64,000 nt of DNA, taken from positions 12,439,001-12,503,000 of the forward strand of contig NC_092680.1 of NCBI RefSeq assembly GCF_964355755.1. Reading direction: 5' to 3'. A program made the translations under genes and the position numbers. The notes under the pieces were generated by a model. It was given only the letters and a program-made list of their open reading frames with translations, was not told where the DNA came from and made no database searches. This DNA is from Antedon mediterranea. Taxonomy: Eukaryota > Echinodermata > Crinoidea > Comatulida > Antedonidae. The first letter of the stretch is position 1. Every line of letters starts with the position of its first letter. This document shows positions 2,322 through 57,100 of this stretch, one piece after another.

Positions 2322-3159
2322 GGGTGTCTAGAAAACTCAGATCTAGAACACTCAGATCTCAGATATATCTGAGTTTTCTAGATATAGAAAACTCAGATAT
2401 CTGACTTTTCTAGATCTAGAAAACTCAGATATCTGACTTTTCTAGATCTAGAAAACTCGGATATCAATATCTGACTTTTCTAGTTCCAAAATGGAACTAG
2501 AAAACTCAGATCATCATTTGATTGGTTGGTAGGTCCATTATTAATCAGCAGGTATTATTAAAACTGATTACTGTGTATGTTCTTACTAATACTGTAACAT
2601 GTAGAAGCGGCCTACGGCTTAAATCATAAAGAAAATACATTGCATGTTACCGTTAAAATGTAGGCTTAAAAATGAGGCATGTACGAGTTGATGTGGGTTC
2701 GAGTTGGTTGAGGTACGAGTTAGCCAAGTTGGGAATAGGTACCAGTTATTTTGGGTACGAGTTGACCACTTCTATTCTAGTACTGTAGGACCAGGTCTTC
2801 CTTTTGCGATACATCGCGATAGCGCCCACACGTTGAGCCTTGAATTGAGTTTGCTTAGCTAGGCCTAAATGCTATAAGACTACATTTTAAAAGGTGTATA
2901 CTGTATTTCTTTATGATTTAAGTCGTAGGCTGCTACTACAAGTTCCAATAATTATTATTATTAGTAAGAAAACGTACTGTGTAGTATTTCAAATATGCTA
3001 CCCTCTAATAATAATGGAACGATCCATTTGATGATCTGGGTTTTCTAGTTCCATTTTGGAACTAGAAAAGTCAGATATTGATATCTGAGTTTTCTAGATC
3101 TAGAAAACTCAGATATATCTGAGATCTGAGTTTTCTAGATCTGAGTTTTCTAGACACCC
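2322..3159. mobile_element. Fold-back element A, 838 bp, 9-bp target duplication
   Basis: The ends are exact inverted repeats: GGGTGTCTAGAAAACTCAG at the left and its complement ending GACACCC at the right. Both arms are built from short units alternating AGAAAACTCAGATATC and GACTTTTCTAGATC, and the pairing extends inward, for example TTCCAAAATGGAACTAGAAA near 2484 against its complement near 3050. The 9-bp sequence ATTACACAT directly abuts both ends (2313-2321 and 3160-3168), as expected for a target-site duplication. There is no coding capacity. Structure and duplication length fit a non-autonomous fold-back or MULE-like element; elements C and J have the same architecture. Confidence 0.88.
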
Positions 3160-3240
3160 ATTACACATATCCTTATTTCAACACCAAACCATTGGCCTAG
3201 TTGATATTGACTTTAACTGGGAAATATTGGCCTGAAATGA

Positions 3241-3360
3241 TTAATGTTCGCTTGACCTGGTGAATATTCACTTGACCTGGTTAATATTTGCTTGACCCGG
3301 TTAATATTCACTTGACCTGGTTAATATTCACTTGACCTGGTTAATATTCGCTTGACCTGA
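3241..3360. repeat. 20-bp tandem repeat, six units
   Basis: Six consecutive 20-bp units of the form TTAATATTCRCTTGACCTGG. It lies in the intron before the first visible TRIT1 exon, and no function is apparent. Confidence 0.9.
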
Positions 3361-3585
3361 CCTCTTTTCATGATATTCTAATATTATTTCTTGTTTAAAA
3401 AAGCCACAAGCATTTTGCTTATGCGTAATACGAACACTACTAAATATACATTATTAATAAATGCACATAGATAAATAACATTTTAAATTATTATATTATT
3501 CATGGTACATTGGTTTATTGCTGTACAAGTGTCAGATATTTAATGTTTGTATGATGGATGCTTTTGATTTTTTTTATTTTAACAG

Positions 3586-4818
3586 GACGACCTGGTTTCA
3601 ATGTACCCCCTGTATATGGCCTAGATGCTACTGACGCCACACAATGGGATCATGCAGTACTTGAGCCAGCGATGAAAATCCTTAGTGATGTCATGGAGGT
3701 AACTTGAGTTGTAGCTTGGTGGTTATCCGCTACCAAAGTCCTGGGTTCATATCAGATGCTAGGATTTGTTTTCAAACTTCACTCAAGGACTTGTTAAAAA
3801 ATATTTAACAAGTTGTATAGGCTTATTCACAGTCAATCAATGATGCCAAGCTAATCAATATCATGTTAGTTTTCAATAAATCAAAATAATGCGCAGTGTT
3901 TTATTTATATACACACATATATCTTGAATTTACATTTATGCCCAAGAGATTATAATTCAATTCATTTATTTTCCTGAAAGACATAACATTTGAGTACAAA
4001 TAATGTTAGAGTCTTGCAGCAGATTGTAGATAAGTGAGAAAACCACTTTTTTTTTTAATAAAGGGTAAAATGCCAAGTGCAAAACCGTTAGTGATTGAGG
4101 AGAGGTCAGAGGTCAAACCAGAAACCACATTCGTGTGTGATATATGTAGTGGTCGAATAATCGTTGGACATCAACAATGGCAAGGTATTTGTAAGATGCA
4201 TTTAAATTTGATTGTCTTTATATTTCCACCAACCTCTCATATCGTTATGTACCACCTAATTGTGAGGTAGATTTAAACAAAGATAGAAACACTTGATGCA
4301 ATCCACCAATCATATGGTAAGGATGCACTGTTAGAGACACATGATACATACTCCACCAATTAAATGGCAAGGATACACTGTTAGAGACAAAGTTAGACAC
4401 ATGATACATAATCCACCAATTAAATAGCAAGGATACACTGTTAGAGACACATGATACATACTCCACCAATCAAATGGCAAGGATACACTGTTAGAGACAT
4501 ATGATACCTAATCCACCAATCAAATGGCAAGGATACACAGTTAGAGACACATGATACATAATCCACCAATCAAATGGCAAGGATACACTGTTAGAGACAC
4601 ATGATACATACTCTACCAATCAAATGGCAAGAATACAAGACAAAGTTAGACACATGATGCATAATCCACCAATCAAATGGCAAGGATACATTGTTATTTT
4701 GTTTGTGTAATTCTTTATTTCAATTTCTACAGCACACTTAAAATCCAGAGTTCATTTCAAACGTGCAAAAAAGATTCGGAAGAAAGAATTGCTGGCTAAG
4801 TTTGCCCAAGAATCTTGA
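3586..4818 (+). CDS. TRIT1: tRNA dimethylallyltransferase (tRNA isopentenyltransferase), last three coding exons
   Basis: Exons 3586-3698, 4064-4184 and 4733-4818 join in frame with GT-AG introns and end at TGA 4816-4818. The enzyme adds an isopentenyl group to A37 of certain cytosolic and mitochondrial tRNAs. The visible part is the C-terminal tail: WDHAVLEPAMKIL matches the helix before the tail of animal TRIT1, and a C2H2 zinc finger of the matrin/U1 type follows (CDIC, then H-x5-H in AHLKSRVH), split by the last intron, then a basic stretch (KRAKKIRKKE). The catalytic N-terminal exons must lie left of the window; none is visible between 1250 and 3585. The assignment rests on the tail alone, but the finger, its spacing and the preceding WxxxVLEPA block together are distinctive. 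Confidence 0.85.
4300..4696. repeat. Minisatellite in the last TRIT1 intron
   Basis: About eight copies of a 50-bp unit (ATCCACCAATCAAATGGCAA followed by GGATACACTGTTAGAGACAC and ATGATACAT). Some units carry a 10-bp insertion, AAAGTTAGAC, making them 60 bp. The array lies between the 4184 donor and the 4733 acceptor. Confidence 0.92.
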
Positions 4819-4983
4819 CATAAAAGGTACACTTTTATTTGATATGTACTATAATTTAAAATTCAGTTTATGAAACTATTATATACAATGTTCACATGCT
4901 ACATAACAATATAATTATTTTTTTCAATAGTGCTTTATCTATATATATATGTTTATATGTTTATATGTTTATTAAAAATTGAG

Positions 4984-4989
4984 AATAAA
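4984..4989 (+). promoter_or_regulatory. Candidate TRIT1 polyadenylation signal
   Basis: An AATAAA hexamer lies about 165 bp after the TRIT1 stop codon. No cDNA is available to confirm its use. Confidence 0.45.
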
Positions 4990-7617
4990 ATTTAAGGCCT
5001 AACTATATAAAATATCCACCTGTAGCCTGCATTGTGTCCTATGTACAACCTATGGGTGGAAAAAATAGGACAATTTAATACCTGTAGGCCTCGAAAAAAT
5101 GTGAAAAATTAGTTTCATTCATTTTGAGAATGAATATTGGTGGATATATCTGTCGTCTATTTGTGTTTGACTAGCATTTGTGTAACCACTTTGAGACGAA
5201 AACTACTGTTTGTGAAGATCTGAAAGTTATCAAAAAAATGAAAGAAAAGTGCAAAAACTATGAAAAAGAAACTATGAGAAAGTGCAAAAACTAGTTTATT
5301 GCATAGAGATATTATATCTCTATGTTTATTGTAACGGCAGAAAAAAAAAACCTGAATGCACTTGTTGGGCAACTTAATGATAACATTAAAACCATTAGCA
5401 TAATACTAGATAGAAGGCAAGAGTTGGTGCGTGAGTGATGGATACACAATTGGCATTGTAAACATTTTAGTGAAGTGTATCCCCTGACAATACATGGCTT
5501 TCAAATAATAAAATATAGCATAGATTTCAAATAAACTATCTACAGTATTTGTGTAATGGGTCATAAAAGCAATCTCTGCTTCATTTATATCAAAACATCT
5601 TATTTTGATTGAATATAAAGTACTATTTAATTAGATAAAAGCATATCAATCACTAGAGACACGTTTTAGTATTTACCCTTTGACCTTAAGTCATTTACTT
5701 CCATTAGGAAGAAGAAACTGTCAAACTAATACAGTTAAAAGGCAGGTTATTGTATCAGTAACATATGATGTTATAAACTGGAGTCTTGATCCACTTTACG
5801 ATTCCTTTCATCTTGCAATGGCTTGGAATGCCTCAATCTTCTGTTTTTAATTGAAGTATTTTCCACATTAAGTTCATTCATCTACTTTGTTCCACCCTCT
5901 ACCTTCAATACTAGGTAGACAAGACTAATGGACTGTTGAACAAGTTATAAACACATACACAAACTGTGTTTACTATAATATTTAGGTTTTAGTATAATAA
6001 TACTAAAACTAGTGGACTCCTCAGATCATCTACCCCTCTATTTCGAAAGGTTAAACTCCAGGAATTTCTTTAATTAGTTCGTACCATCTATGACATCCAG
6101 TACACATCATCATAATGTTCATGTTCCCGGTACATCTTCAATTTGGAACTATTAATATAATTATTAAAAAACTTATTAAACTAAATTAAACTAATTACCA
6201 CGATAATTTAAATACATAATCCCAATTACGGTATTCATTTTTTATTAAAAAGCCATTTAATTAAAAAATTATGCTACCTAAAATAGACAAGTCAATAATT
6301 GTATACGGCATGCACCCCCGGGTCTAATATACATTAATGGCATCCGTTCAATCACAATATAATCTATAAACTTTATTAATATTCTGTTGATGATGAAATA
6401 AAAAATCACCCAATTTACCTTGAATATTAATAATCATTAATGTCAATTCTCAAGCGGTTATGAAGTTACAAAAAACGTTGAATTAATCACATATTGTGTG
6501 CTGTATGATGCCTTAGGGAAAAACATGTATAAAACTAAGCTTGCTAGTTTCAATACAACTAGCATTTTATAATCAATATTGATGATAGATGAAAAGCTTT
6601 AGAAAAATGATGTTAAATAAATAGGATTGTTCCAGTTCGGAATTTTAATTTTACACAGATGACATATAGAATCATGCATGATACAAGATTATTTTTTAAT
6701 TTAAAACTGAAATTCACAATATTATGTCTTTTTAGCTTTATTACAGTTGGTATCCATTAAATAAAGTCCATCAATCACATCATGATCATTTGCCTCTGAT
6801 ATGATATCAGATGCATTTCTAGCCTGAAACCAGTTAAATTAAACCTCAAGAAGTTCAATATTTATAGTTAACACAACATCCTGAAGGGTAATGTAGACTT
6901 GTATAATAAGAGTTTAAAAATTTACATCACTGATTCATAAATTGATATCCCTTCAGCAAAAGTCAAGACTTAAATATTATTAGAGTTAGCAAATTATATT
7001 CCATAAACACAGGCTGTAGTCCCATTAGCAAAGTGAAGACTTAAATATTATAATAGTTAACAAATTATATTCCATAAAACTGACACAGGCTGTAGTCCCT
7101 TCAGCAAAGTGAAGACTTAAATATAATAAGAGTTTACAAATTGCATTGCTGATTTGTACAAATTAATGAAATGAGTCCCTTTAGCGAAGACATTCAGTGT
7201 AGAAGTACAAATTGACAGACATTTATGAACTTGTGTAAACAAAGTGACCTTAACATTTACAAATGGATGATGTCATCTACATTCATTAGTTTATACAGTT
7301 GTTCCTAAGGCACATTAAATTCACAATTCGATAAAACTGCACTAACATAAAGAGGACAAGGGCAATCAAGAAATTATACTATTATACTGCTTTAAAAAGT
7401 TTAAAGTGTTTAACCCAGATTTTACAAGAAGGGCGGCTGGCGATGGATTGAAAAAACATCCGGAGCAGTTGCAAATGTTTGTGCAGGAAAAGTGCCTACA
7501 AATAAACTATTGCATATTCATAAACCCGCAAATGTGAATAAATAGCTCACAGCAGCATATTTACATACTATACAAATATACACTGAGATTTTATCTCTAA
7601 CAGCATGTACAAAATCG
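4990..7617. other. Intergenic region between the 3' ends of TRIT1 and the F-box gene
   Basis: The two flanking genes converge here. No exon is supported. The DNA is AT-rich, with many runs of A or T. From about 6895 to 7190 there are roughly three copies of a 105-115 bp repeat recognisable by TTCAGCAAAGTGAAGACTTA and AAATTATATTCCATAAA. Confidence 0.55.
6895..7190. repeat. Degenerate tandem repeat, about 110-bp unit, three copies
   Basis: Successive copies share CCTTCAGCAAA, GTGAAGACTTAAATAT and ACAAATTATATTCCATAAA, with small indels between copies. Confidence 0.7.
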
Positions 7618-7659
7618 TTTATTTATTACACTATCATTTCTTCTTACAGACTACTGGCT

Positions 7660-20792: not shown

Positions 20793-21939
<1,147 letters not shown>

Positions 21940-24154: not shown

Positions 24155-25692
24155 TATGTTTACTTGTTTACTTGTTTCCCGTACACTTTCGTCTACGGGA
24201 TCGAGGCGAAGCACTCAGTGCTTAAAAGCCCCTCTTAGCAATAAAATCATATTCTATATAGGGTGAAAACTTCAGCGGGTGGTTAGACCATGCGACGTTA
24301 AGTTTTGCTTTGAACAAGTTCACCGTAGCACATGAAACTACATCCGTAGGCAGAGCATTCCATAAGAGAATAACTCTCCTGGAGAACGTGTCCCTCCTAA
24401 TATTAAGACGAGAGCTTTTAAACTTGAGTTTATATGGGTGTCCACGGGTCCGAGATTCTAGATCAAATTCAAAAAATGTGTTGATCGAAATACGATCGAA
24501 ACCTTTAACAATCCTAAAAACTTGGATAATATCTGCTCTCTGCCTTCGATATCTCACTCATGGTAGGAAGACCAAGAATTCTCAAACGTTGTTCATAAGG
24601 AATATTACGGTACCTAGGAATCAATCTTGTTGCTCTTTGCTGGACCTTCTCTATTTCATCCTGATCTCGTTTTCTAATAGGATTATAAACAGTGTTACAA
24701 TATTCAAGCGTTGGCCTGACAATAGACTTATACAGCTTCAAAAATCCATCTTTATTCAAGAATTTAAAAGATCTATAAATCATTCCTAGTTTCTTATTAG
24801 CTCTTTTACAAATATCCGCTACATGCAAATTAAAGATTAAACTATGATCAAAGGTAACACCTAGATCTTTCTCCTGCTTTACCTCATGTAGTAAATTACC
24901 AGCCATTGAATACAAGAATTTGGGATTATCACGACCATAATGAAATACCTTACACTTAGTGTCATTAAAAGGCAATTGCCAAACATTAGACCAATGGGAA
25001 GCACTGTCAATGTCTCTTTGAAATAAATCTGCATCATCAATGTTATTGACCACTCTATACAACTTGGTGTCGTCTGCAAATAAACGTATACTAGATTCGA
25101 CAACATCAGGTAAATCGTTAATGAAGATTGAAAATAAGATTGGGCCCACAACGCTACCCTGTGGAATTCCACTTAATACTGGAGCCTGTGATGACAATTG
25201 ACCATTGACACTAACTCGTTGTGTTCTATTTGACAAATAATTAGAGAACCATCCTAGTAGATTTCCCGTAATACCAAAACCTTTCAATTTGACTAGAAGC
25301 CTTTGGTGTGGCACACTATCAAAGGCCTTTTTATAGTCTAAATAGACACAATCAAAGCTATCATGGTTATCCAGGTTAGTAGTCCAACTCTCCAGGACAT
25401 CAAGTAGTTGTAATGCACATGATCTACCTTGTCTGAATCCAAATTGCTCATTGCACAAAAGACCATTACTTTCAAGATACATTACAAGTTTATCCCTAAT
25501 AATCCTTTCCATCATTTTCCCTATGACCGACGTTAAACTAACCGGTCTGTAGTTAGCCGGGTCCTCCTTTTTGCCTTTCTTAAATATAGGTATTACAATT
25601 GCCTCCTTCCACGATAGAGGGACCTTCTGATCATTGAATAATCTAGTGAATATTAGACTGAGAGGGTAAGCAATGTTACTATTGAACTTATA
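24155..25692 (-). mobile_element. 5'-truncated CR1-like LINE (reverse transcriptase and 3' end)
   Basis: The minus-strand frame covers the reverse transcriptase: PIFKKGKKEDPANYRPVSLT, then AFDSVPHQRLLVKL, GIPQGSVVGPILF and the catalytic FADD, followed by the C-terminal QRATRLIP block. Near 24560 the frame shifts and resumes as YRRQRADIIQVFRI...RTRGH...LWNALP, ending at 24222. The 3' end carries a short tandem repeat (ACAAGTAA type, about 24158-24178), typical of CR1/L2-type elements. There is no endonuclease region, so the copy is 5'-truncated. Its 5' edge, near 25692, is fused in frame to the N-acetyltransferase-like sequence. Confidence 0.88.
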
Positions 25693-26509
25693 CATTTGAG
25701 GGAAATACTTCAGTAGAATACTACGTAATTCATCATTTCTTAAGATTGGATTGGTTACTAATTCATCCTTATCATTTTCGTAAATAAATTCGTTATCTTT
25801 AATTGCAACTAATCGCCCGTTGCTCATGATTACCGCGCGAACCTGCAGCAAAAACGGGAATTTACAGTAATAAGGATCAACATAGTGATTGCAAGTTTGC
25901 TGTGAAATCGTCAATTGTACAATTGTCATAAAATAAATACCACTTATCCTTTTCTTCTTCTTTGTTGGCTTGTTGGTAATTACGTTTGTGAATAACGATA
26001 TCGTATTGTTATCTTTACGACAAAATTTATATTCTAAAAATCCTTGTTTGTACACAGGCGATGCTTCGTTGAAATCAAGTGGCATAATTCTCCACGTTGG
26101 TAAGGACGTGCTTATAATTATCAAGAAAGTGTGAATCTCCTAACTGTACGAGTGACCGAATTATCAGAGTCAGATGGAAGTTGTTGATGCCGAATGCCAG
26201 TGTTCCTGTATAGGCCTAGTCTACCTGGTAACCAATAGACACAAGAACCTCTCTCAGAAAATAATTTATGGAATAGCAACTGCCTCCTTGCCGCGTCATC
26301 ATAGCTGATTTGATTTCTTCAAACGTTGGCACATGGCGCGCATCCGGTGGTACATTTATCGCATGTACCGTTTGGAATGGTATAGCATGCATGAACGAAT
26401 ACGCAATATCAGACAAGAGTTCCACTTTATTTTGTTCGAACTTTTTAAAACTATCATCAATTCCCAGAATACTGTTCAGAAAATCTTCAGATTCTTCTTT
26501 AGACAACAT
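25692..26509 (-). pseudogene. Arylamine N-acetyltransferase-like pseudogene, 3' part lost to a LINE
   Basis: The first exon, 26225-26509, starts at ATG and ends at a GT donor. It reads MLSKEESEDFLNSILGID, then RQGGSCYSINYFLREVL, where GGSC is the family RGGxC motif holding the catalytic Cys. The C-terminal part follows at 26124-25692: MPLDFNEASPVYKQGFLEY, FPFLLQVRAVIMSNGRLVAI and LRSILLKYFPQ, all typical of this family (PF00797 type). The middle segment is broken: the matching text (WYLFYDNCTIDDFTANLQSL) is in a different frame from both flanks, and the segment after the first exon is too short to supply the rest of the fold. The family acetylates arylamines or hydrazines from acetyl-CoA; this copy should be inactive. 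Confidence 0.75.
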
Positions 26510-28597: not shown

Positions 28598-29640
28598 AGC
28601 CTATTAGGGCCAACAAAAAAATAACATTGCTTTCACAAATTCGAAATAACGAATTATTAATTCGTTATTTCGAATTTATTTAAGTAATTTGAAATTTCGA
28701 ATTATTAATTTGAAATTTCGAATTATTAATTCGAAATAACGAATTACTAATTCGAAATTTCGAATTATTAATTCGAAATAACGAATTATTAATTCGACCT
28801 CTGCTCTTTCTAATGACATCCCAACCATCCCGGATTACATTAGCTCATAGGGTGCTAATGCAATCTGGTCATCATTCGTCCTGAAAACCATTGGATTAGA
28901 TTATTTCAATCGTAGCTTAAATTATCAAGAGATTATTGAAATGTTAGCAGAAGATCATGATATGTTGATAAGTAAACGGACATTAAAGCGAAGGCTGAAA
29001 AAATGTGCCTTAGTCGAAGAAAACGGCATTCTGACGAACTTGAAGCCAATTACAGACGTCAGGGATGCTACATGGGTACAGGTGGATGCACATTCGTTGC
29101 ACACAAAATGGGTTAAACATAGATAAAAAGATGGTCAGAATAATTTTAAACCTTCTTGACCCAGAGGGTGTCTAAGCAAGGAGACGACGACTACACAGAA
29201 GAATTTATCATGTACCTGGCCCAAACTATATCTGGCATATCGACTCGTACGACAAACTTAAGCCATACGGCATTTGTATAAATGGCGGATTCTCTAGACA
29301 CATAATATGGCTAGTCCAAAAGTTATAGCCGGCTATTACGTAAATTCTGTTCGCCAAAAAAATGGATTGTCCCGGGGGTTGTCCAAAGTCTATTAGAACA
29401 GATTTTGGAACTGAAAATTCTATTGTTGGTCCAATGCAACAATTTCTTTGTAATGAGAACAGCAGTTTTATATAAGGAACAAGTCAGCATAATCAACGAA
29501 TTGAGAGTTGTTGGGGCATTCTCAGAAAATTATTATTAATATCGTATTTAACTAAAGTGTCTGCCAGAGTAAGATTAAGGGCCTCTTTACATACATTTGT
29601 TTTTAAATTTATATGGATCAATTTTAAATTATAGTGTAAT
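28598..29640 (+). mobile_element. Integrase-type DNA transposon, copy 1 (degenerate, DDE integrase remnants)
   Basis: After AT-rich palindromic repeats (28640-28797) a frame begins at 28941: MLAEDHDMLISKRTLKRRLK, a helix-turn-helix-like start, then TWVQVDAHSLHTKWV. Across frameshifts it continues as RRIYHVPGPNYIWHIDSYDK and LKPYGICING. DFGTEN lies in the next part and NQRIES near 29500. D in WHID, D in DFGTEN and E in RIES, with about 33 residues between the last two, form the DDE triad of retroviral-type integrase folds. Stops and frame changes (near 29180, 29320, 29400 and 29470) make it inactive. It resembles the IS3EU or related integrase-core transposons of animals; the superfamily is my recollection, not a search result. 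Copy 2 at 46386-47960 is inverted. Confidence 0.75.
28640..28797. repeat. Self-complementary AT repeat of the integrase transposon
   Basis: Repeating units TTCGAATTATTAATTCGAAA and CGAATTAC, nearly palindromic at every step. The same repeat, longer, lies at the equivalent place in copy 2 (47548-47952). Confidence 0.88.
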
Positions 29641-31062: not shown

Positions 31063-31189
31063 GACAGATTTGCTACATTTGACAGTGTCATTTCATAACT
31101 GTTAGAAGTATAAGTAATTGGGAAACAAATACATATAAAACAAAACGTGAATTTAATTGCAAAAACAATCAAGTGTTATGGTAAATTCC

Positions 31190-31450
31190 GGGTGTCTCGA
31201 AAACAGAGACCCCCACTAAAACTTCTTGATATTACGTTATATAGGGGGGTATCTGTTTTCGAGATTTTCTCGATTGTTTTCGAAATTTTCTCGAAAACAG
31301 ATACCCCTTAAATAATGTAATATCGAGAAGTTTTTTGTTTTTTTTTTGTGGTGGGTGGGGGGGGTCTCTGTTTTTTAAAATCTCCAAAACAGAGACCCAT
31401 GGGTCTCGGGTCTCTGGTCTTTGTTTTCGAGGTCTCTGTTTCGAGCACCC
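31190..31450. mobile_element. Fold-back element B, 261 bp
   Basis: The left end, GGGTGTCTCGAAAACAGAGA, pairs with the right end, TCTCTGTTTCGAGCACCC. Inside are a second hairpin (GGTATCTGTTTTCGAGA against TCTCGAAAACAGATACC) and repeats of GGTCTCTG. The flanks are an imperfect 9-bp match: GTAAATTCC at 31181-31189 and GTAAATTTC at 31452-31460, offset by one A. The ends are close to those of element C. Confidence 0.78.
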
Positions 31451-32526
31451 AGTAAATTTCAATAGCGAGGGCACATCCCTGCGTATTCCGTTTTTTGACT
31501 GGGGAGTACACACATTACGGATAGCTATTAACATTAACACCAGGGGTGTTGCCCTAGACGTGGCCCGGGCAGCGATTTTTTTTTCGTACATAAGTTGGGG
31601 ACCCCCTCATGAAACGTCACAAAATAAACATGAATAATTCATCAGTTAAATTTTCCTGTTCCGTGTGCACCCAAGCGTATTGCGGTACGATTCTAGGCCT
31701 ATCTCAGACTCCGCTGTTGTTGCGGCGTGCGATTTCATAGAAGAATAGCTGCGTTTTGTGTGGATTGTCGAAATAATCAGCCTTTAGTTTATGGTGTTTT
31801 TAATATAATGTATTACTAACGAATTACGTGTTAAAATTATAGTTTCTATTAATACTATTAGGCCTAATTATTTGTCTCTAAACCCATGTCTATTCTAGTA
31901 GTAGCTGTGTGGGTATGTGTGACGTGTGTGTGTTGGTATGACACAATCCGAGTAATAAGTCAGCAAAATTAAACAATAAACTTACACAAAAATACATTTT
32001 TTATTCTCGCGGGTCTAATCTTCCCATCTCATGTGTTCATATAAATATACGCGCATTTTTTAAGTTCCTTTGAGTACATGCCATATTGTTTGATAATAAA
32101 ATAGCAGAATTAAAAAAATAAGTACACAAATCATACACATTCTTTATTCTTGTGGGTCTAAGGTTTCTTTGGGCTATGTCCAATGAATTACTACTTAGTG
32201 TAATGTCTTGCCTAGCTGTCGATTAGCCTCGACTCGACACATTTTGCATAGTGGTGTGTGTGACGTGTGAAGAAGAGTGCGCGAAGGCAATCACGTGAAT
32301 TGACAGAATCCTAGGCCTACTCAAAGATAGTGTAGTAGGAAGATGTTACACTTCCTATTCGTTCAATGCAAATAAAAGCGAGACAACATGGAGCTAAATT
32401 TAAAGGGCGCCTCGCACGTCGAGTAGGGATACAGAAAGTTATTGTATAGGAAATAGGCTATTATAACAGTAGAATAATATGATTGTAAAAAAAGTTAAGA
32501 TTTAATACGAATTAACATATAAAATG

Positions 32527-34154
32527 CGTATCCGGATATTCACCCCCTGGACATTTACCCCCCGGACAACTACCCCCCGGACAACCACCACCTGGACCAC
32601 TACCCCCTTAGGACAACTACCCCTTTAGGACAACTACCCCCCGGACAAATACCCCCCGGACAACTACCCCCTTAGGACAACAACCCCCTTAGGACAACTA
32701 CCCCCTGGACAACTACCCCCCGGACAATTACCCCCTAGGAACAATTACCCCCCGGACAATTACCCCCCGGACAATTACCACCCGGACAATTACCACCCAG
32801 AAAACTATCCCTTTAGAACACCCTAACCACCCAGACCATTCAACAACCTGACTCTGCAACTATTAATTAATAACTATATTTTAATTCGTTACTTTGACGA
32901 ATTACTATTCATTATTGTAAACAAAAGTAAAAGATTGAACATAAATATAGCCTGGTGGTATAAACTGAAGATTGTCACACATGATCATAGGATAGGATTT
33001 TTGCGTCAGGACAATGCTTCGATAACCACTGGTCTTAAAAGAATTAATTTTTGTCTCAAATTTGTCATATATGTATTTTTGTACACTTGAAGAATAATAT
33101 CACTTTTGATATTTGACCTCAATGTTCACTCACCGAATAAACGTCGATCTTTAAATAAATTCCCCTCAAATAAACGGTGAACATGTCACTCCCATGAAAC
33201 ATCATATGGAATAATCGGCGTCTATTTCCATTAGATTATACCCCCTCCCATTGAATAAACAACTTTCTTCCAATAAATGTCCACCTAAAAACCACCTAAA
33301 CAATAAACAGCCCAGGCCGTTTTTTCAATAAATACGGTACTTTAAATCTAGCACATCTAGGGTCTAGCGTGCTGTTAAACAGAATAATCGGTTAAAAACG
33401 GGTGTTTCGAAACTAGAGACCCGAGACCAGAGACCAGAGACCCGAGACCCAATACGAAAAGGGAGACCTAAATATACGAAAAGGGAGACCCACGTACGAA
33501 AAGGGAGACCCCACTATACGAAAAGGGAGACCCCACTATACGAAAAGGGAGACCCTAATATACGAAAAGGGAGACCTAAATATACGAAAAGGGAGACCAA
33601 ATATACGAAAAGGGAGACCCAAATATACGAAATGGGAGACCTAAATATACGAAAAGGGAGACCCACTATAAGAAAAGGGAGACCCCACTATACGAAAAGA
33701 GAGACCACACTATACGAAAAGGGAGACCCTAATATACGAAATATAGGTCTCCCTTTTCGTATTGGGTCTCGTGTCAGGTCTCTGGTCTCGGGTCTCTAGT
33801 TTCGAAACACCCGTTAAAAACAGATGATTTCATTTTTACAGAAACCGGTCCTATATATTTGTCTACTTTTGGATTGGGGGGGGGGGGGGTAGTTGGCCGG
33901 GGGGTAGTTGACCGGGGGGTAGTTGACCGGGGGTAGTTGACCGGGGGGTAGTTATCCTAAGGGGGTAGTTGTCCTAAGGGGGTGGTTGTCCGGGGGGTTG
34001 TTGTCCGGGGGGTTGTTATCCTAAGGGGGTAGTTGTCCTAAGGGGGTAGTTGTCCGGGGGGTAGTTGTCCGGGGGGTAGTTGTCCTAAGGGGGTAGTTGT
34101 CCGGGTGGTAAACATCCGGGGGGTAACTGTCTAGGGGGTAGGTGTCCTAGAACC
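32527..34154. mobile_element. Fold-back element E with 15-bp-repeat arms, 8-bp target duplication
   Basis: The left arm (32545-32850) is a tandem array of GGACAACTACCCCCC and variants with TTA insertions (about 15-17 bp). The right arm (33878-34145) is the complementary array (GGGGGGTAGTTGTCC and GGGGGTAGTTGTCCTAA). ATAAAATG occurs directly outside both ends (32519-32526 and 34155-34162). Sea-urchin TU fold-back elements are described with arms of 15-bp tandem repeats and 8-bp duplications, so this is an excellent structural match. The central part has no ORF and contains element C. Confidence 0.85.
33400..33812. mobile_element. Fold-back element C, 413 bp, nested in E, 9-bp target duplication
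   Basis: Perfect terminal inverted repeats, GGGTGTTTCGAAACTAGAGA and its complement, continue as GACCCGAGACCAGAGACC. Between them about 14 units of a 20-22 bp repeat (CGAAAAGGGAGACC plus a variable TA-rich spacer) run in one orientation, closing with one inverted unit. GTTAAAAAC abuts both ends exactly (33391-33399 and 33813-33821). Confidence 0.93.
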
Positions 34155-35779
34155 ATAAAATGTAATGTTATCTTTATAGAAAGTGCAAATGAATCATATT
34201 TATATGTTTTGGAATACAAATTTGTGTTTCAATTACCTGGAATTGTTTAAGTACCTGGAATTTATCTACCCGTATTTTATTTCTTTTATTTTAATGTTTT
34301 TATTTGCAAATCAATTGAACTTTTTAAAATTATTTACATTTAATTGTTTATCATTGGACATAGATAGAAAATTTAATACCTAGCTTTAGAAACACTTCTT
34401 CGTCAGAGTGAATAAATATATTAGGAGCCTAGTAGTGGTAAATAGGCCTATAATGTGTATGCCTATATAATAATCCATTACGTATGGTTTATTTCTAAGG
34501 GTAATAAAAGAGAATAGGTAGTATGGCATGTAATCAATAATCAATCAATCAATCAATATTTATTATAATCAATAATATTATACAAATAGTCGATCTGCAT
34601 AAACTGAATACGGTACCAGTAGGCTTGAACATTATAGGAATTTAGGACTACGAGTATGTTTTTTTACTGAAAAAAAAACAATTATTGTTAATTATCTATT
34701 AATTTTAATAATTTAATAATACTGTAACTAATTATTATATTATGCTTGTAACACTCCGAACTTTTGTGCATTCATCGTAATTGTATATGCCCTGATTATG
34801 TAACGCCTAACATTATTGATAATATTAATTATAAGCCAATGAGTTCATTATTGGTAAGGTTATATCAAGGAAAAAATATCCGCGGGGAAGCCTACTTTAC
34901 CCCCTTTCATTATACTATCCTTACAAAAAATGTTCTATCTATAGAAGTTTTAGAATTCTATGTTAATCTATAGAAACAGATAATTTCTATAGAAACGAAT
35001 TTACAGATTCTACCCCTAGAGTTTTATAGAAATTGCAGAAGAATTGCTATAATTTATTCATAAATCATATATTGTTTGTCAACAACAATACTGTATACTG
35101 TAAAATTAGCATTATGACTTCAGACTTAACTGGGGTTTACCAAAGATAGGTAAGAGTTTTTATGGGTACGGGTGGGTTGGTTTGGGTACGGGTTGGTTTG
35201 GGTACGGGTTGGTTTGGGTACGAGATGACCACCATCCATTCATTCATGAAAGCGTCTACAGGCGCGCGTAAGCCTCCTCCTGATCCTAGCTCAGTGTTTA
35301 CAGTCATGTCATGACAAAACTCACTCCAAATAAATGTATTAACAATTAAAAAGATCCAAAAACAGTATGAAAACATCATATTAATTTTTAACTTTGTATA
35401 ATAAAGACAAAAAAGAAGTTTTTGTTTGTTTTTTGTGGCTTATTTTTACAATTTATTGCCGAAAACACCATTTTCATTGGGCTTTGCCATTGCGCTCCTC
35501 ATGTTTCAGATTCGTCTATCCCTACTCGTCGTGAGAGGCGCCCTATCTCGAGCGGTTCTTTAATTTTTGAGCGAAGTGTAACATCTTCCTACTACACTAT
35601 CTTTGGCCTACTGTAGAAAGTATCGTATCGCAGTTATGTAATCACTTCTTGTTGCTATACGCTTGGGTGCACACGGAACAAGATAATTTAACTGATTAAT
35701 TATTCATGTTTATTTTGTGACGTTTCATGAGGGGTCCCCAACTTATGTACGAAAAAAAAATCGGGCCCGGGCAACACCC

Positions 35780-38387: not shown

Positions 38388-38535
38388 TGTAGCTTACGTC
38401 GACACAGTACACGACGTAACCGTCGGTAAACTTCGCCTGGAAAGTAACTACAATACACATTTTGGTCCCTGGATGGAACATGATATCACGCGTCTGGACC
38501 CAACGTTGAACGATTCGTACAAAGGGATACTTTAA
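38388..38535 (+). other. Exon-like ORF inside the hAT-like element
   Basis: After a good acceptor (TTTTTCCTGTAG) an open frame reads VAYVDTVHDVTVGKLRLE, then FGPWMEHDITRLDPTLN, and stops at TAA. Composition is richer in G+C and less repetitive than the surroundings. I do not recognise the family. It may be a captured host exon or chance. Confidence 0.35.
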
Positions 38536-38539
38536 AATT

Positions 38540-39212
38540 AGGACTTATAAGTACTTTCAGAAAGAGAAACACATAATAACAAATAAATAAATCCTTTAAA
38601 TTGATGATTTTACAGATGTGTTTCTTTGTATACTGTAATGTAACTCCTCGAGCTCCCCATGCTCAATGTTTTTGTTTCTATGGAGCGCCAAAAGAGCAAC
38701 AATAATAGTACAAGTATAAAAACAGAAAGAAAACGAAACAAAAAAACTTATCATGATTTTTAAATTAAAATTTATTTGCCAGTATTTATTTCTTCGTACT
38801 TGCATGATTATACTATTATCATTACAATTTTAATTTTACATTGTTCCATTCACACTGTAGATGGACTCCACAGGGTTTTCAGCCCTCTATATAATTTTTG
38901 CTCTTTTGACGTTCCATAGAAACAAAAACATTGAACATGGTGTAGGCCTACTGTACTGTAGGCTAGTCATTTTGTGTGCGAGAAAAACGTCTGTAAAATC
39001 ACCAATTTAAAAATGTATTTGTTACTTTTTATGTGATTCTTTTTCATGAAAGTGCCAATTCTAAGGTGTGGTATTCAGAATAAATGTTTGGAGTTAAAAT
39101 ACAAGGCAGGTGCGAAAGATAAATATTTGTAATCTTAGGTCTGGGTCTTAGCTTTCGTGATCTTAGGTCTTAGGGGGTCTTAGCTTTCGTGGTCTTAGGT
39201 TTCGTGACACCC
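38540..39212. mobile_element. Repeat D: fold-back core with one GGGTGTC-type end
   Basis: The right end, CTTAGGTTTCGTGACACCC, is the complement of a GGGTGTCACGAAACC start. Before it are repeated TTAGCTTTCGTG and TCTTAGGTCT units. The core is a palindrome: AAATTGATGATTTTACAG, TTTGTTTCTATGGAGCGCCA and AAAGAGCAA near 38596-38700 pair with 38900-39010. The same core occurs at 54420-55160 in element J. The left end is missing. Confidence 0.7.
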
Positions 39213-44745: not shown

Positions 44746-44746
44746 C

Positions 44747-46385: not shown

Positions 46386-47960
46386 CAATGTCGGGCGTCC
46401 AAACGGACCATGGCTATTTCTAGATTTTGAGATGCGATGGGCATTCCACTCATTTGCAACCGTGTCCAGTTCATCCTTTAAAAAAAGCCAAATATAATAC
46501 AGTACAGTAAAAACAAATAGTTTAATGACAGTTTAGACCGTGAAAAAAAACAATATCGTAAATAAAAGAGGAGTGATTTAATTCTAGGCTAATATTGTTT
46601 GCTTTTCAAATTGTTGCGAAAGCCCTAATTATTATTATAATTGTCGTACTTGGGGACTATAATGCATAGCACACAATGTAATTGCTGTACTGCTTACCTG
46701 GATAATTTTCATAAAACAAAATTGTAATAAAGACTTGTCTATAAGACCTCCATCATATCTACCGTCATTCTTTAGTTGTTTAAAGGCATCCATCCAAAAC
46801 TGAGTAAAGTGTTTTCTGAGAATGCCTCACCAACTCTCAATTCGTTGATTAAGCTGACTTGTTCCTTGTATAAAACTGCTGTTCTCATTACAAAGAAATT
46901 GTTGCATTGGACCAACAATAGAATTTTCAGTTCCGAAATCTGTTCTAATAGACTTTGGACAACCCATTTTTTGGCGAACAGAATTTACGTAATAGCCGTC
47001 TATAACTGTTGGATTGCTGCTAGTTAAGTAAGCTTCTAGCCATATTATGTTTAGATAATCCGTCTATACAGCCATTTTTACAAATGCCGTATGGCTTAAG
47101 TTTGTCGTACGAGTCGATATGCCAGATATAGTTTGGGCCAGGTACATGATAAATTCTTCTGTGTAGTCGTCGTCTCCTTCTTGCTTCGACACCCTCTGGG
47201 AGAAGGTTTAAAATTATTCTGACCGTCTCTTTATCTATGTTTAACCCATTGTGTGCAACGAATGTGCATCCACCTGTACCCATGTAGCATCCCTGACGTC
47301 TGTAATTGGTTTTCAATGAATAAGTAATTGGTTTTCAATGAGTAAGTTCGTCAGAATGCCGTTTTCTTCGACTAAGGCACATTTTATCAAAATATCACGA
47401 TTTTCTGCTAACATTTCAATAATCTCTTGATAATTTAAACTACGATTGAAATATATAATCTAATCCAATGGTTTTCAGGACGCATGATGACCAGATTGCA
47501 TTAGCTAAAGTAATCCGGGATGGTTGGGATGTCATTAGAAAGGGCAGAGGTCGAATTATTAATTCGAAATAACGAATTACTAATTTGAATTTTCGAATTA
47601 TTAATTCGAAATTTCGAATTATTAATTCGAAATAACGAATTAAAAATTTGAATTAACGAATTACTAATTTGAAATTTCGAATTACTAAATTATTAATTCG
47701 AAATTTCGAATTATTAATTCGAAATAACGAATTACTAATTCGAAATTTCGAAATAATAATTTGAAATAACGAATTACTAATTCGAAATTTCGAATTAATA
47801 ATTCGAAATTTCGAATTAGTAATTTGAAATAACGAAATAAATAATTCGAAATTTCAAATTAATAATTCGAAATTTCAAATTAGTAATTTGAAATTTCGAA
47901 TTAATAATTCGAAATTCGAAATAACGAATTAATAATTCGTTATTTCGAATTTGTGAAAGC
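46386..47960 (-). mobile_element. Integrase-type DNA transposon, copy 2 (inverted relative to copy 1)
   Basis: Minus-strand frames read RRIYHVPGPNYIWHIDSYDK, then (after a frame change near 47045) IIWLEAYLTSSNPTVIDGYY, VNSVRQKMGCPKSIRTDFGT and NQRIESW. A TGG-to-TGA change follows near 46827. A possible second exon (46384-46475) encodes DELDTVANEWNAHRISKSRN. The D, D-33-E triad residues are intact, but a frameshift, a nonsense codon and a small duplication near 47325 make the copy inactive. The palindromic AT repeat at 47548-47952 and the GGCCAACAAAAAAATAA end match copy 1. Confidence 0.78.
47548..47952. repeat. Self-complementary AT repeat, longer copy
   Basis: About 400 bp of TTCGAATTATTAATTCGAAA, TAACGAATTACTAATTCG and variants. 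Almost every 18-20 bp window is its own complement. Confidence 0.9.
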
Positions 47961-48007
47961 AATATTATTTTTTTGTTGGCCCTAATAGGCTTTCGAGGCT
48001 TTCGTAG

Positions 48008-48103
48008 AAAACACCATCGTTTTGCATAATTGTACATCTCCTGTTTCATTATCGTCTATCCCTACTAGTCGTGAGAGGCGCCCTATCTCGAGCGGTTTTC
48101 TAA
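48008..48103. repeat. Element F arm fragment upstream of RIDA
   Basis: TCGTCTATCCCTACT, GTCGTGAGAGGCGCCCTATC and TCGAGCGGTT match 35512-35556 with one mismatch. Looser similarity (GAAAACACCAT) extends upstream to 35461. The fragment ends about 80 bp before the RIDA start codon. Confidence 0.8.
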
Positions 48104-48181
48104 ATTGCACGCTCCAAAAACTTAGGCCTATTAACTGTACTTCTTTTCTACTGGTTGATTGTGTTTATTTTCTTCTTTAAC

Positions 48182-51100: not shown

Positions 51101-54100
51101 ACTGTAGATCATGACATTTTATGTAATAAGCTTAAATTAATGGGTATTGTAGTATCTATTGAATGGTTCAAATCTTACTTATCAATAAGAAAGCAAATAG
51201 TAACTATTGATCATTGGCCCTTTAAGCCCAGAGGCTTGTTTCCAAAGGGGTCCCCAACATAATAAAATAATATTACAATAATTATACAAAAATATGGATC
51301 TATTATTATTTTATACAGTATTACAAATTAATTTAATTACATGTTAGATTTATGCTGAATTCTGATAATCATTATTATTACAAAAATATCTACTATTATT
51401 TACAAGAAAAGTCAATCATAATTTTAGGTCTATATAATTTGCATATTTGTTAATAAAAATTTCTTAAGAGTCCTTTTAAAACTATTGTGTGTAAAAATAT
51501 TTGTTATTTCTATTGGTAATTTGTTCCACAGTGTGATTGCATTAAAAAAAAAGGTATTACTAACAGTATAGTTATTCATTGGAACAATAAAATTACAATC
51601 TTTTCCTCTAGTACCATGGTTATGATTTATCCTATTAAAATTATTTAACATAAAGTCTGGACAACTTTTTGTATATATTGTCTGTACGTGTTGTAGTGTC
51701 ATTTGTTCGGCCCTGGTTTTAACATCTAATAAACCAAGAAAAGTATAATCGTCTTTGGTGATATGGTATCTATTATGTTTCCCTAAGATGAATCTAATTA
51801 CTTTATTTTGTGTTCTTTGAAGTTTAGTACGGGAATCCGCGGTTGTACCCCAGTACCAGGATGATATAGCATAATTTATTTACTTCCATTATGAGTTTAC
51901 GGATACAGCGATCAAAGTTACGACAATTCCTATACGCAAATTTAATACGACCATTAACTTTCTTAATAATTGTTGAGACAATTAATTCACTATTAAGCCT
52001 ATTGCTTAGTTCGATACCAAGGTATTTTATAGAGCTATTCAAAGAAATTGTATAGCCATTGTAAAGGACGCTAAAATTTGTGTAGTTCTTGAGAGACATC
52101 CTGGGACCAAACAACATTAGTTCAGTTTTTCCCATGTGAAGTGATAAATTATTGTCAATTAACCATTTATTACAATTAGACAGATCCCTAGCAAGATTTT
52201 TACTGATGATATCAGGATCATGATGAGCATTGACAATTGCACTATCGTCAGCATATTGCATTAACAATGATGAGACGGACATAGGCATATCATTGACGTA
52301 GATGAGGAACAGGAGTGGTCCCAGGATGCTCCCTTGTGGCACTCCACATACAATTTCTGAAGGCTCTGAAACAGCCCCACCAATATTGACTGTTTGATGT
52401 CTACATTCCAGATATGATTTAAACCAGCTGACAGATTCGATTCCAATTTTTCTGAGTTTCTTACAAAGTAAGTCATGACTAACGCAGTCAAAAGCTTTTT
52501 GGATGTCAATAAGTAAGATACCAGTAAATTTCCCTTTCGCTGTTTGAGTTTTAAAGTGGAGCTACACTCAGACTTTCTCAGCTTTTATTATGTTTAAGTA
52601 TGTTTAATTGAAAGTGATTACATAAAAAAAACAGGGAAAATACGGAAATATTTTCCAAAAACTCATTTATAAAAAATCGGTCAGAAAATAGTGTTTTTTA
52701 ACAAATTACAGTTTTTCAGTAACTTAGGGGTTATTAGTTTACAATACGTCGCGAAACGCGTTACACTTAGCGACTGACGCGTTTTAGTCGCTGGTCAACG
52801 CATTGTGGAAATGTCTCCCCTTTGGTAAATTATGTGTCAAAAAATGGGGAATAAATTTTATACACACAATTAATACGATTTGTTTAGGCCTAACTAATAT
52901 TTCCGATAAGAATGTCAGTATAATTTACATGTAACCTCATGATTTTCACTGTACAACAACAGCATAATAATCTTATCAGATTGCTTTTAACTTTAAGCTA
53001 GGGCTAGGCCTAGTTAAGCCGTCTGCTCAGCCTAGCTAGCCTTGAATTTTTGTCTAGGGGCCTATGTATTCATAGACATGGTCGTTTCGCCCCATTTATC
53101 GTTCCTGGGTTTTCTCGCACATTAAGAATTGTGGAACACAAAATCCTATACAGAACAAGAGTAGTAAAGAATAGTAAAGCGATGTGCAAGCTTAGACCTG
53201 ACTGAAAAGCAACTATTCAGGCACCCTATCATGGCCCATGGGTAGGCCAAGGTCGGGTGACAGCAAAACAAACTTCACTGCTGTCAGCCTAGCCTAGCTA
53301 GAGGCCAAGCCACTGAGCAGCATCGGTATATACCTACACTCTAGTAGTAGGCCTAGGCCTAGCTTCATTGAATATATAGGAGTGTTGACAAAGTGCGAGG
53401 CAGCGAGGCACGCGAGGCAAGCGAGGCATGCCAAATATTTGTGCGAGGCATCATTTTATCCTTTCCAAAAGTGCGAGGCATGCGAGGCATATAGTTTACA
53501 ATTTCAAAAAGGTGCGAGGCATATCTTAACGTGCTATTATGCTATATTATAGGCCTAATAATCAATCGATACAAGCGTATCTAAATAGATTCGTGTATAC
53601 ACTCATCATGTTGTTTATTTTTATGTAACGATTGTTTTTTCATTCAAGTCATATCGTGTCAAATTTTACTTTTACAAAAGTGCCCAAACTACGGTTAAAA
53701 AATCAAATGACTGCAATGTTTGTTGGCATTTCGAGCGTGTTCACTCACATGTCTCTCGAACATAGCAGAGTGAAAATAATATTTTGTCACACCCCTGCGC
53801 CTAGATCCGGTAGACCGGAGAGATGGAAAATCCCTCTTTACTATTAGCAGGTAGCGGAATGATTCAGCCCTCAGCTCAGAGGATTGTGGTGCATTCCCCT
53901 ACTATAGCACGTGGTTTCAGCAGCAGCAACGCACAGACTTCTCTCTGAGCGGCGTGCCAAAGACATTTTTGACATTCCATTCTCTAGGAACAACACGTGT
54001 ACCTCTCTCGCAAATAAGGTGAACAGCGATTGCCAGGACAAGTTCAATAACTGGCGGTGAATAAAAGGTAATTGATATGCCGATCCAATAACATGCCGCA

Positions 54101-57100
54101 AAGAAAAAAATTGCGACAGAATTCTGGAGCGCGTGTGAAAAAAGACTTACGTCCGACAATTGTAATACTAGGCCTAAAATTAAACTTTAGCTAATAATTT
54201 TTATTATGCTTAGCCCTAACCTAGATAAGAGGCCTATGTAGAAAATAATTTAATCAATTTTGATATAATAATAATTGGTGTAATATTTAATAATGATACA
54301 CTATTCCTGTTTTAGTAAGCTAAGTATATTACGAACGATTTTTATTTATTGTTGTCCATGTACGTACTAATAAACGTGGCGCTAGTTTCCTTCGCTTGTA
54401 TTTTTACTCCAAATTTGATAACTAACTTTATCGTGTGAATACCACACCTTAGAAGTATACCTCATGAGTACTTTAATGAAAGAATCACATAAAAAGTAAC
54501 AAATAAATCCTTAAATTAATGATTTTACAGGGGTGTTTCTCGCACACTGTTCGCGAATTTCACTTATTCAATGTTCAATATATTTGTTTCTATGGAGCGC
54601 CAAAAGAGCAACGATAATAGAGGACTAAAACTCAGTGGAATGCGTCAATTTCTCATGCATTTATTGGTGAAAAACACGTTTTATTTCAATATATTTGTTA
54701 ATTTGTCAATAAAAATGTTGTAATATGTTACTGCTGATACTGTTCTGTTTTCTTCAAAGAATAATAATCGATCCTAAATCAACATCACTACCTAGTCTAG
54801 ACCTAGGACATCCTACTAAGGATATTATGATGAATTTTTCTATTTTATTCTTTAAAAGGTTAACGAAACCGTGTAGATTATCAACAGTAACATTTTTCCT
54901 TACTGACAGTGACAAAATCTATTGAAATTGTACTTGATTTTCACCAAATAATGCGTTAAATATAAATGGATTCCACAGAGTTTTTAGCCCTCTAATTAAT
55001 TTTGCTCTTTTGGCGTTTCATAGAAACCAAAATATTGAACATTGAGTGTGCGAAATGCGAGAAAAACAACGTCTGTAAAATCACCAATTTAATGGATTAA
55101 AGTAGGCCTACTAATTCTAAGCTGTGGTATTCAGGATAAAGTTGGTTAAAATACAAGGCAGGTGCAAAAGGAAACTAGCCTAGCGGGCCTAGGCCTAGGC
55201 TACTTCAATTTCGGTGATTACCTGCCTTGCAATTTTGAGAAATGATAAAATGATGCCTCGCATTTTTTGATGATGGTAAAACGATGCCTCGCATACATTT
55301 CTGACTTGCCTCGCATGCCTTCCCTGCCTCGCGTGCCTTGCTGCCTTGCACTTTGTTACTACCCAATATATAGCCACATCTTTCTCAAATCTCGTTAAAT
55401 TTGACATTTTATTAATAGTCTCATAATCACATTATTACACTGTGAAACATAATAGGGTCACATTCAGAATGTTTTAATATACTTTTCGCCCGTCAAAAAT
55501 AACATCGCGACAAAATAACAGATCGCCAGCTGCAGTAGTGTGATTGTGAAAAATGTCACGTGATCGTACTCCCTAGCAAAATGAAAAACCCAATTGGACC
55601 CGAACGGGGGAAAGTGTCTATTTACGCAAAATTGCGCAATGTATACGTGATAAAAATACCAGAAATAGAAAGATCTGGAAAAATTACATAAAAATACATT
55701 TTACATTTTTTTTTTGGTGAAGAAATGAATTTTTTAGGATTATTCAAATATACCCCCCTTTTGCATGTAAAAGAATAGGAAATTACAAGGTATCCCCCCA
55801 AAACGCAAAAAGGCGTGATTTTCAAGAAAATCGTACTCATTGAAAAAAATTTCAAAAAAATATGAAGTATAAGGGATGATATTTTTAAATAATAGTCGAA
55901 ATGTATGAAAAATAGTAATTTTCTGGGTGGAGCTCCACTTTAATGAAGTCTGTCAAGTGAATTAAACAGTGATCTGTTGAAAAGGACTGTCTGAAACCAG
56001 ACTGAAAACGATATAAAAGCTTGTTCCTTTCCAAAAACTCATTTAATTGTGAGTGAACAATCTTTTCTACAATTTTTGACACCACCGACAGTATACTGAC
56101 AGGCCTATAGTTAGCAGTTTCAAGATTACTTTTTTTCTTGTAAATTGGTCGAACACCAGCCAATTTCATCTCATTTGGAAAACATTCCGTTTCAAATGAG
56201 AAATTGATAATCCGTGTTATGGGAGTTGCAATAATTTCGGACGCATCCCTTAAAAAACGTGCGGGTATGCCATCTAGACCTGTACTTTTATTTACACTGA
56301 GACCCAAGATCTCCTTTTTAACTATATCGTTGTTTACAGGTTGCAAGGAAAATTTGTCAGTACCGTCATAGTATTTTTTTAAATTCTCAGAATTTACATC
56401 AAATTCGTATGACCTTTGCGGGAGCTTTCTTACCAGATCTGATGCTACGTTTGTAAAAAACGAGTTAAAGTGACTGGCAATAATGTTTGGCTCACTACAT
56501 AGTTTGTCATTTATTTTAAGAGTAATCGAAGCAGTTTCATTTTGTTTATTTTGATACCCAAGATCTTTTATAACCTTCCATAACTTTTTAGGGTTACAGT
56601 ATGTCGATTTGTATTGATCTTGTCAATAAAATGAGTCTGCTTTGCTTCTTTTATATTTCTTTGTACCTGATTTCTAAGTTTACAGTATTCAGTACGATAT
56701 AATAAATTACGAGTTCTTTTGAATTTTTTAAGATAATTATCCCTGGCCTTAATAATTTTGAGTATGTCAGGTGTCATCCACGGCTGAGAAGAGTGTCTAA
56801 TTCTGACTTCTTTTACAGGAGCAACTTTATCCAAAACATTTGTGAAATTTACACAAAAGGCTTGCCACGAACAATCAACGGTTTCTGCCTTGTGAACATT
56901 GTCCCAATCAGTCTCTTGAAGAAGACGTATAAACTTTTCTCTATTGTAGTTTTTAGTTGATCTAATCTTCACCTTTTTATGCGTGTGGTGTTTTTGTTGC
57001 TGTGTATGACGAGTGGCATATATAGGAAAGTGATCACTGAAGCCTATAGATAGCACTCCGAATTTGTTTAGTTTGTCCGAAGAGTTGGTGATAATATGAT

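Follow-up and report, generated by a model that had tools for sequence, protein, structure and literature searches.

Among known kinds of element, the GGGTGT-ended fold-backs described here have their nearest match in Tm1 of root-knot nematodes, a Mutator/Foldback transposon which features a short end motif and a variable number of 13-15-bp tandem units, duplications of 8-10 bp, mostly 9, and MITE-like non-autonomous copies, together with one copy that encloses FLYWCH and MULE domains between its ends (PMC3169594). Tetris of Drosophila virilis is a modular, non-autonomous fold-back element with 8-10-bp duplications, placed in Mutator without a known transposase; its description, which also cites a sea urchin fold-back, names the arm repeats TIR-220 and counts three structurally complete copies (PMC4079207). 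Galileo (PMC3573991, PMC3688188) belongs to the P superfamily and features 7-bp duplications and arms of up to about 1.2 kb, whose repeats contain binding sites for the transposase (THAP); its chimeric copies combine the arms of one subfamily with the centre of another. Rehavkus, reported from arthropod and annelid hosts, is MULE-related and characterized by 9-bp duplications and a PHD finger in the transposase (PMC6446971).

The elements reported here are most likely a related set of non-autonomous fold-back DNA transposons, Mutator-like in kind. They share with Tm1 composite inverted repeats made of tandem units, and the asymmetric outer ends of Tm1 resemble those of one element, J; end and unit sequences differ, no FLYWCH-MULE copy was found within the ends in the loci and elements covered here, and several sister families coexist, with distinct unit variants and a family-specific 9 or 10 bp. 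Tandem repeats in the arms and modularity recall Tetris, and arms varying by tandem repeat number recall Galileo, from which probable superfamily and duplication length set them apart. Rehavkus, compared by description only, is like this genome in its 9-bp duplications and perhaps in the PHD finger, a PHD-like exon accompanying some MULE genes here. No GGGTGT fold-backs are described in the titles and abstract openings searched, which does not prove them unpublished.

Elements of the window and their target-site duplications

The window, meaning the whole analysed stretch, is 64,000 nucleotides of the Antedon mediterranea genome (C11:12439001-12503000 in our contig labels). The genome searched comprises 354 Mb in 18 contigs, and loci, labelled by L-numbers, were read from eleven contigs of 22-41 Mb. 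The elements of the window, none with an assigned strand, are as follows.

2322-3159, element A: 838-bp fold-back with GGGTGTCTAGAAAACTCAGATC ends and arm units of 15-16 bp
31190-31450, element B (CT family): 261-bp fold-back, GGGTGTCTCGAAAACAGAGACC
31572-35764, F, re-bounded: a separate Mutator-like family with GCGATTTTTTTTTCG ends, host of H
32527-34154, H: fold-back outside the GGGTGT group, with arms that repeat the 15-bp unit ACCCCCCGGACAACT and an 8-bp duplication, ATAAAATG; it hosts C
33400-33812, element C, of the TT family: 413 bp long, ending in GGGTGTTTCGAAACTAGAGACC, with ACGAAAAGGGAGACC units repeated every 22 bp
38529-39212, element D: CA-family element reduced to its right-hand portion, with GGGTGTCACGAAACCTAAGACC arm and palindromic core, without the left end
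53380-55364, element J: 1,985 bp, GAGTGTTGAC/GGGTAGTAAC ends, GCGAGGCA arm units
54395-55170, palindromic core of J: about 75-78% identical to its CA-family homologue (D) and, like it, close to the right arm

When the window is searched for inverted 20-bp ends (at least 15/20, spacing up to 12 kb) flanked by exact 9-bp duplications, only A, C, J and F come up, apart from arrays that are simple palindromes and repeats lying within A. A and C have ends identical at 20/20 and exact duplications (ATTACACAT at 2313-2321 and 3160-3168 for A; GTTAAAAAC for C, which sits in H as a passenger), and an equally exact one (AATATATAG) flanks J, whose ends match at 15/20 (GAGTGT/GGGTAG); these three duplications are those that a first, sequence-only reading of the window had noted. 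That reading had joined B and D to the group by their ends: they do belong, as CT- and CA-family members, but the duplication of B is 10 bp long and matches at 8/10 (GGTAAATTCC/AGTAAATTTC, at 31180-31189 and 31451-31460). D, 98% identical to L008, is what truncation has left of a CA-family element about 1.08 kb long. F, tentatively counted in from a GGGTGT at 31544, turns out to have its true ends, GCGATTTTTTTTTCG and CCGATTTTTTTTTCG, at 31572 and 35764, with identity 19/20 and the 9-bp duplication GCCCGGGCA. A second copy of H, in L007, is flanked by the 8-bp duplication CCCCTAAG. Sea urchin TU fold-back elements have 15-bp outer repeats and 8-bp duplications and, by these features, are likened to H alone, not to the GGGTGT group. 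GGGTGT also occurs in the window away from element ends, for example at 24436, beside or inside reverse-transcriptase frames, and at 31544, beside F.

The sequence-only reading had proposed a genome-wide search for GGGTGT ends, and the enrichment and pairing of these ends came out in its favour. The pattern GGGTGTNNCGAAA has 1,773 matches (901 forward, 872 reverse) versus 85 (44 and 41) for the reversed control pattern. Among the 100 matches listed, the two free positions read CA in 66, TT in 21, GT in 7, CT in 3, GA in 2 and AA in 1; D belongs to the CA, C to the TT and B to the CT family. Of the same-type pairs at most 5 kb apart, 41 are convergent and one is divergent, with one more oriented plus-plus and two minus-minus. 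When no more than one mismatch is allowed, the genome has 100 ends of the GT family, which is absent from the window, and 464 of the J type, each with no match in its control; when up to two are allowed, it has 432 A-type ends, versus 1 in the control. A narrower pattern, GGGTGTNNCGAAANNNNNAGA, gave 1 match and 1 in the control, because its AGA spacing was wrong.

Target-site duplications were scored family by family. The CA, GT and TT samples are all same-type neighbouring pairs among the 100 GGGTGTNNCGAAA matches listed (27, 3 and 9, respectively); for A, 15 elements were taken (14 of the 19 pairs visible among the 100 A-end matches listed, plus that of the window), for CT 10 (9 of the 10 pairs listed, plus B, the omitted pair sharing its neighbour's spacing and looking like a copy) and for J 13 (10 of the pairs listed for the J end, that of the window and two nested ones, in L015 and L019). 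The 27 CA pairs, all on C1, feature 21 exact 10-bp duplications, 3 at 9/10, 1 at 9/11 and 2 none; J features exact 9-bp duplications in 12 elements and 8/9 in one. The CT elements show 5 exact 10, 1 exact 11, 2 at 9/10 and 2 at 8/10, B being among the last, and the A elements 4 exact 9, 4 at 8/9, 1 exact 10, 1 at 9/10, 1 at 7/9 and 4 none. Two of the three GT pairs scored have an exact 10 and one has none; two more, judged by eye, gave 9/10 and none, so that the duplication is absent in 2 of 5 (the outer GT pair, L059/L060, was read but left out of the scoring). The TT family includes one independent insertion with an exact 10-bp duplication. In a control that combined the left flank of one element with the right flank of another, none of 4,692 matched exactly and 23 were near-matches (7/9 to 9/11).

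Duplications of the 8-11 bp expected of Mutator/Foldback elements are thus the rule, the exceptions being 5 of 15 A elements, one of them at 7/9, and 3 of 27 CA elements, one at 9/11; the 7 bp of Galileo and the P superfamily do not appear, exact matches being of 9, 10 or 11. The uniform 9-bp duplication claimed from the window holds for J, most A and the one event behind C, but not for CA, CT and GT, where it is 10 bp, nor strictly for A, which is mixed. Differing lengths, which the same reading had named as evidence against itself, are in part what was found, J having 9 bp and CA, CT and GT 10. Empty sites complete the picture: excising J (L019), GT (L020) or H (L007) together with one duplication restores CA sequence, at 98%, 98% and 100%, respectively. 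The J element in L015, where CA sequence does not flank both sides, was left out of this check.

Arm units, nesting and a core common to two families

Aligned in register after GGGTGT, the arm units are ACGAAAGCTAAGACC (CA, second unit), TCGAAAGCGAAGACC (GT), TCGAAAACAGAGACC (CT), TCGAAACTAGAGACC (TT, terminal unit) and TAGAAAACTCAGATC (A). Units of these five families are identical to each other at 9-13 of 15 positions, a level reached by 0 to 187 per 20,000 shuffles of one unit. On this similarity in register, the arms of A, B, C, D and the GT family are built of variants of one 15-bp unit, that is, of repeated copies of the terminal motif. The J unit, GCGAGGCA, is 8 bp long and unrelated to it, and J is the only exception to the 13-15-bp tandem arm units of Mutator/Foldback elements. 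That each family fills its arms with a tandem repeat of its own, as first proposed, is borne out; that these repeats are unrelated is true of J alone.

Two sub-variants of the CA unit occur, and both arms carry the same one in all 24 scorable elements (3 of 27 were unscorable), which none of 20,000 shuffles reproduced. CA cores differ only slightly between the sub-variants (identity 0.976, versus 0.987 within them), and descent by subfamily may therefore explain part of the match.

The smallest copies consist of little else than arms. L068, 99 bp long, has two arms only and an exact 9-bp duplication, and L079, 68 bp, has a duplication at 9/10; L074 (73 bp) and L077 (66 bp) are without duplication. 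Arms alone may thus be sufficient for mobility, although such tiny copies may alternatively have originated by deletion after insertion. L068 and L079 fold far better than shuffles (z -10.4 and -9.8), as expected of such palindromes; the first 150 bases of C fold no better than shuffles, because one arm alone was folded.

C lies within H (32527-34154), which lies within F (31572-35764), in a three-level nest. All nine TT pairs among the 100 matches listed are flanked on both sides by GTTAAAAAC or its complement, the 40-bp flanks of four of them are near-identical to those of the window copy, and arm units and flank hold one relative orientation. These TT copies are therefore read as passengers of a larger repeat: the GTTAAAAAC duplication of C looks like the trace of one insertion event, whose copies spread within the host H. 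Ten C copies, 327-448 bp long, match the unit pattern 8 to 13 times on the main strand and at most once on the other; if all ten descend from one insertion, these counts show growth and loss of units after it, and to this extent the claim that arms grow by repeat expansion is supported. Other nests are J in CA, GT in CA and H in CA.

Consensus sequences were derived from 19 CA copies (1,083 bp; identity between copies averaging 0.980) and from 5 J copies (2,055 bp; 0.989). A palindromic core is common to both: positions 1059-1284 of J correspond to 340-571 of CA (78%), and 1624-1862 to 721-988 (75%). It lies in one orientation close to the right arm in each. The two families differ in their arms, in the unique segment on the left and in duplication length. 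The swapping of arms proposed from the window has its best support in this core (about 75%) being found under different arms, but the core may instead have been inserted separately into each family. It is quite conceivable, if somewhat short of probable, that the latter happened, an older element having become a nested passenger of both, with arms never exchanged on one element: the core is itself an inverted repeat, and elements that sit inside others and spread as their passengers are frequent in this genome (C in H; H, J and GT in CA). Its equal orientation and location near the right arm in J and CA argue against this, as does the inspection of its borders by eye, which did not establish a duplication around it. 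It is conceivable, though less likely than not, that end modules and cores are exchanged as units, that duplication length follows the arms rather than the core, each arm type recruiting its own transposase, and that a core could switch transposase by changing arms, probably via nested insertion and co-mobilisation.

Source of the transposase

The best explanation of these families, and one we hold to be quite probable, is that they are non-autonomous cut-and-paste fold-back transposons, most likely served by MULEs, with arms that are arrays of the end unit and a cut of 9 or 10 bp according to family. It builds on what was observed: ends that pair in inverted orientation, duplications, three empty sites, units that resemble each other, changes in unit number and the core common to J and CA. 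Each end would consist of GGGTGT followed by tandem 15-bp units (consensus about nNGAAAnnnnAGAyC), the terminal motif being the first of them, and the arms would be arrays of a putative binding site, on which, we infer, a transposase may act at both arms, leading to excision and to insertion by a family-dependent 9-bp or 10-bp staggered cut. New families might arise as the unit drifts and spreads through both arms, as unit number changes and as a core gains new arms, the route of such replacement being most plausibly nested insertion and co-mobilisation, or recombination.

That one transposase acts on all these elements had first been argued from shared ends and a single duplication length. 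Lengths are not uniform, being 9 bp in J and 10 bp in CA, CT and GT, and more than one transposase is therefore probable. We think it unlikely that one enzyme serves all families, J included, with 9 or 10 bp reflecting slack in the cut. Some families do show more than one length (4 exact 9 and 1 exact 10 in A, an 11 among the 10s of CT, and in TT 9 bp for the C insertion and 10 bp for another), but in the samples scored J has an exact 9 in 12 of 13 and never 10, CA an exact 10 in 21 of 27 and never an exact 9, and J differs in ends and arm units as well.

A profile of the MULE domain, PF10551, has 36 matches in the genome. The sequence-only reading had suggested looking for a full-length copy with a MULE gene and GGGTGT ends; none was found inside GGGTGTnnCGAAA ends in the 14 of the 36 MULE-match loci covered (L021-L029, L061-L065; L052 and L053 were viewed at their ends only), and no transposase gene was found inside the longer GT, CA, A and J elements fetched (L056-L058 viewed as a middle slice only). 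Long elements often contain nested ones (L015, L019, L043/44, L055, L107, L108), namely retroelements, J or H elements and a PHD-bearing element (L055, L108); others, such as L018, L042, L054, L056-L058 and L109, have no assigned insert.

Several candidate partners were discarded. L023, L024 and L029 are F-type MULEs: F-kind ends and a 9-bp duplication recur there around open MULE-domain frames of 637, 637 and 346 aa, the domain of L023 having been examined by Pfam. L052, a MULE of 6.3 kb, ends in CGGTCCGCC and has arms rich in repeats; L021 and L022 lie in near-identical stretches of at least 13.6 kb, with the left end beyond the reach of the reading; in L025-L028, 8 kb read, no GGGTG-ended pair with a duplication was seen.

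A FLYWCH profile has 10 matches, three of which lie at most 4 kb from MULE matches (C1:26676502, C2:22960486, C3:12266897), and none in L061-L065. L055 contains a PHD-like exon (E 0.0049, 17.3 bits, under the cut-off of 24); counting the exon itself, it has 43 matches with E of 0.01 or less, several of them beside MULE matches (L061-L065). This exon was discarded as a part of the L055 GT element, since it lies in a nested unit with GTTCGGCCGC ends of its own, which also occurs apart in L066 and whose right ends are found in L113, L117 and L118; the second exon of the unit is FLYWCH-like by eye only, with no match in Pfam.

L062, a MULE gene with a PHD-like exon, and its C8 copy have at one end GGTGTGTGACCGAAACGGCCGCC and a second unit, the other end being different. 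Ends of this kind have 35 matches at up to 3 mismatches (control 1), and resemble GGGTGT-CA-CGAAAC / GGGTGTnnCGAAA without being identical to it; this similarity is the one link between the PHD-like exon and GGGTGT ends. No clear 9-10-bp duplication was seen by eye in L062 and the C8 copy, and an intermediate pattern, in which GGGTGTNN was combined with the end unit of L062, had 6 weak matches versus 14 for its control.

MULE genes elsewhere in the genome are the likely source of the transposase for the GGGTGT elements, and the 9-10-bp duplications point to MULEs, without proving it. It is improbable that another superfamily with 8-10-bp duplications (P-like or Merlin-like, for instance) is responsible and the MULE genes coincidental: no transposase was tied to GGGTGT ends, as such a reading would have it, but duplications are of 8-11 bp in MULEs and of 7 bp in the P-type fold-back Galileo, according to PMC6446971 and PMC3573991, respectively. 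Chance, suggested by the shortness of GGGTGT, the AT-rich window and the occurrences at 24436 and 31544 that are no element ends, has a negligible probability, already refuted as it is by genome-wide counts, pairing, duplications and empty sites.

This genome is a natural experiment on the purpose of fold-back arms. Five families are built on variants of one unit, and even the 99-bp and 68-bp copies are flanked by duplications, the former by an exact one of 9 bp and the latter by one matching at 9 of 10. The core common to J and CA, found under different arms, allows one to ask whether duplication length and mobility track the arms. Passengers are spread by nesting, as seen for C within H within F and for J, GT and H within CA, and family counts that rely on flanks are misled by this.

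Target sites of the F-type MULE

The Mutator-like (MULE) element F of the window and three copies of its type found elsewhere in the genome are flanked by exact 9-bp duplications, and CCGG lies within the target site of all four copies examined.

Exact 9-bp duplications of F-type copies
31563-35773, F in the window: GCCCGGGCA
L023: GGCCGGCTA
L024: ACCCCGGCC
L029: GTCCCGGGA

Set against the window's GC content of 34.5%, these sequences suggest a possible target preference of F-type MULEs for CCGG-containing sites. Once F is removed, a small hairpin, GGGTGTTGCCC...GGGCAACACCC, is seen by eye at the insertion site (31544-31571 joined to 35765-35779); the end of F placed at 31544 by the sequence-only reading is, on the same inspection, one arm of this flanking hairpin.

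Fold-backs, arrays and coding frames

Nested within F lies the fold-back H, whose 15-bp units and 8-bp duplications are features also of the sea urchin TU elements.

Other features of the window
32527-34154: H, fold-back, 15-bp units, 8-bp duplications
24514-26124, 51824-52342 and 55885-58232, minus strand: non-LTR retrotransposon frames (by eye)
62177-62512: RidA-type deaminase-like frame (by eye)
59725-60362: tandem repeat, 194-bp unit, 3.3 copies

Palindromic arrays of AATTCGAAATT-like units, with a period of 21/42 bp, occupy 28638-28797 and 47551-47954, and are perhaps an additional fold-back family. Outside the window, within an element of CA, the fold-back family of D, frames recur on both strands (L015, ~4400-7500) in what resembles an extensive array, either tandem or inverted.

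Other MULE genes and repeat-built arms

Contigs C2 and C5 share a stretch of at least 13.6 kb at 99.87% identity (L021/L022 with L050/L051), containing an open 651-aa MULE-domain frame, found with equal length and score at five places by the genome profile search. The right end of the L021/L022 stretch is a tandem array of CCGAAAACAA, and units like those of the GGGTGT-ended family A occur in L021 at ~490-575 and ~1880-1990.

The L052 MULE family
L052, 337-6601: CGGTCCGCC ends, ACCGGAAAAAACCAAAAAA-like units in the arms

This family is represented at three places, by frames 707, 706 and 637 aa long, the Pfam search having been run on L025. The L052 family is a further MULE with repeat-built arms in the A. 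mediterranea genome.
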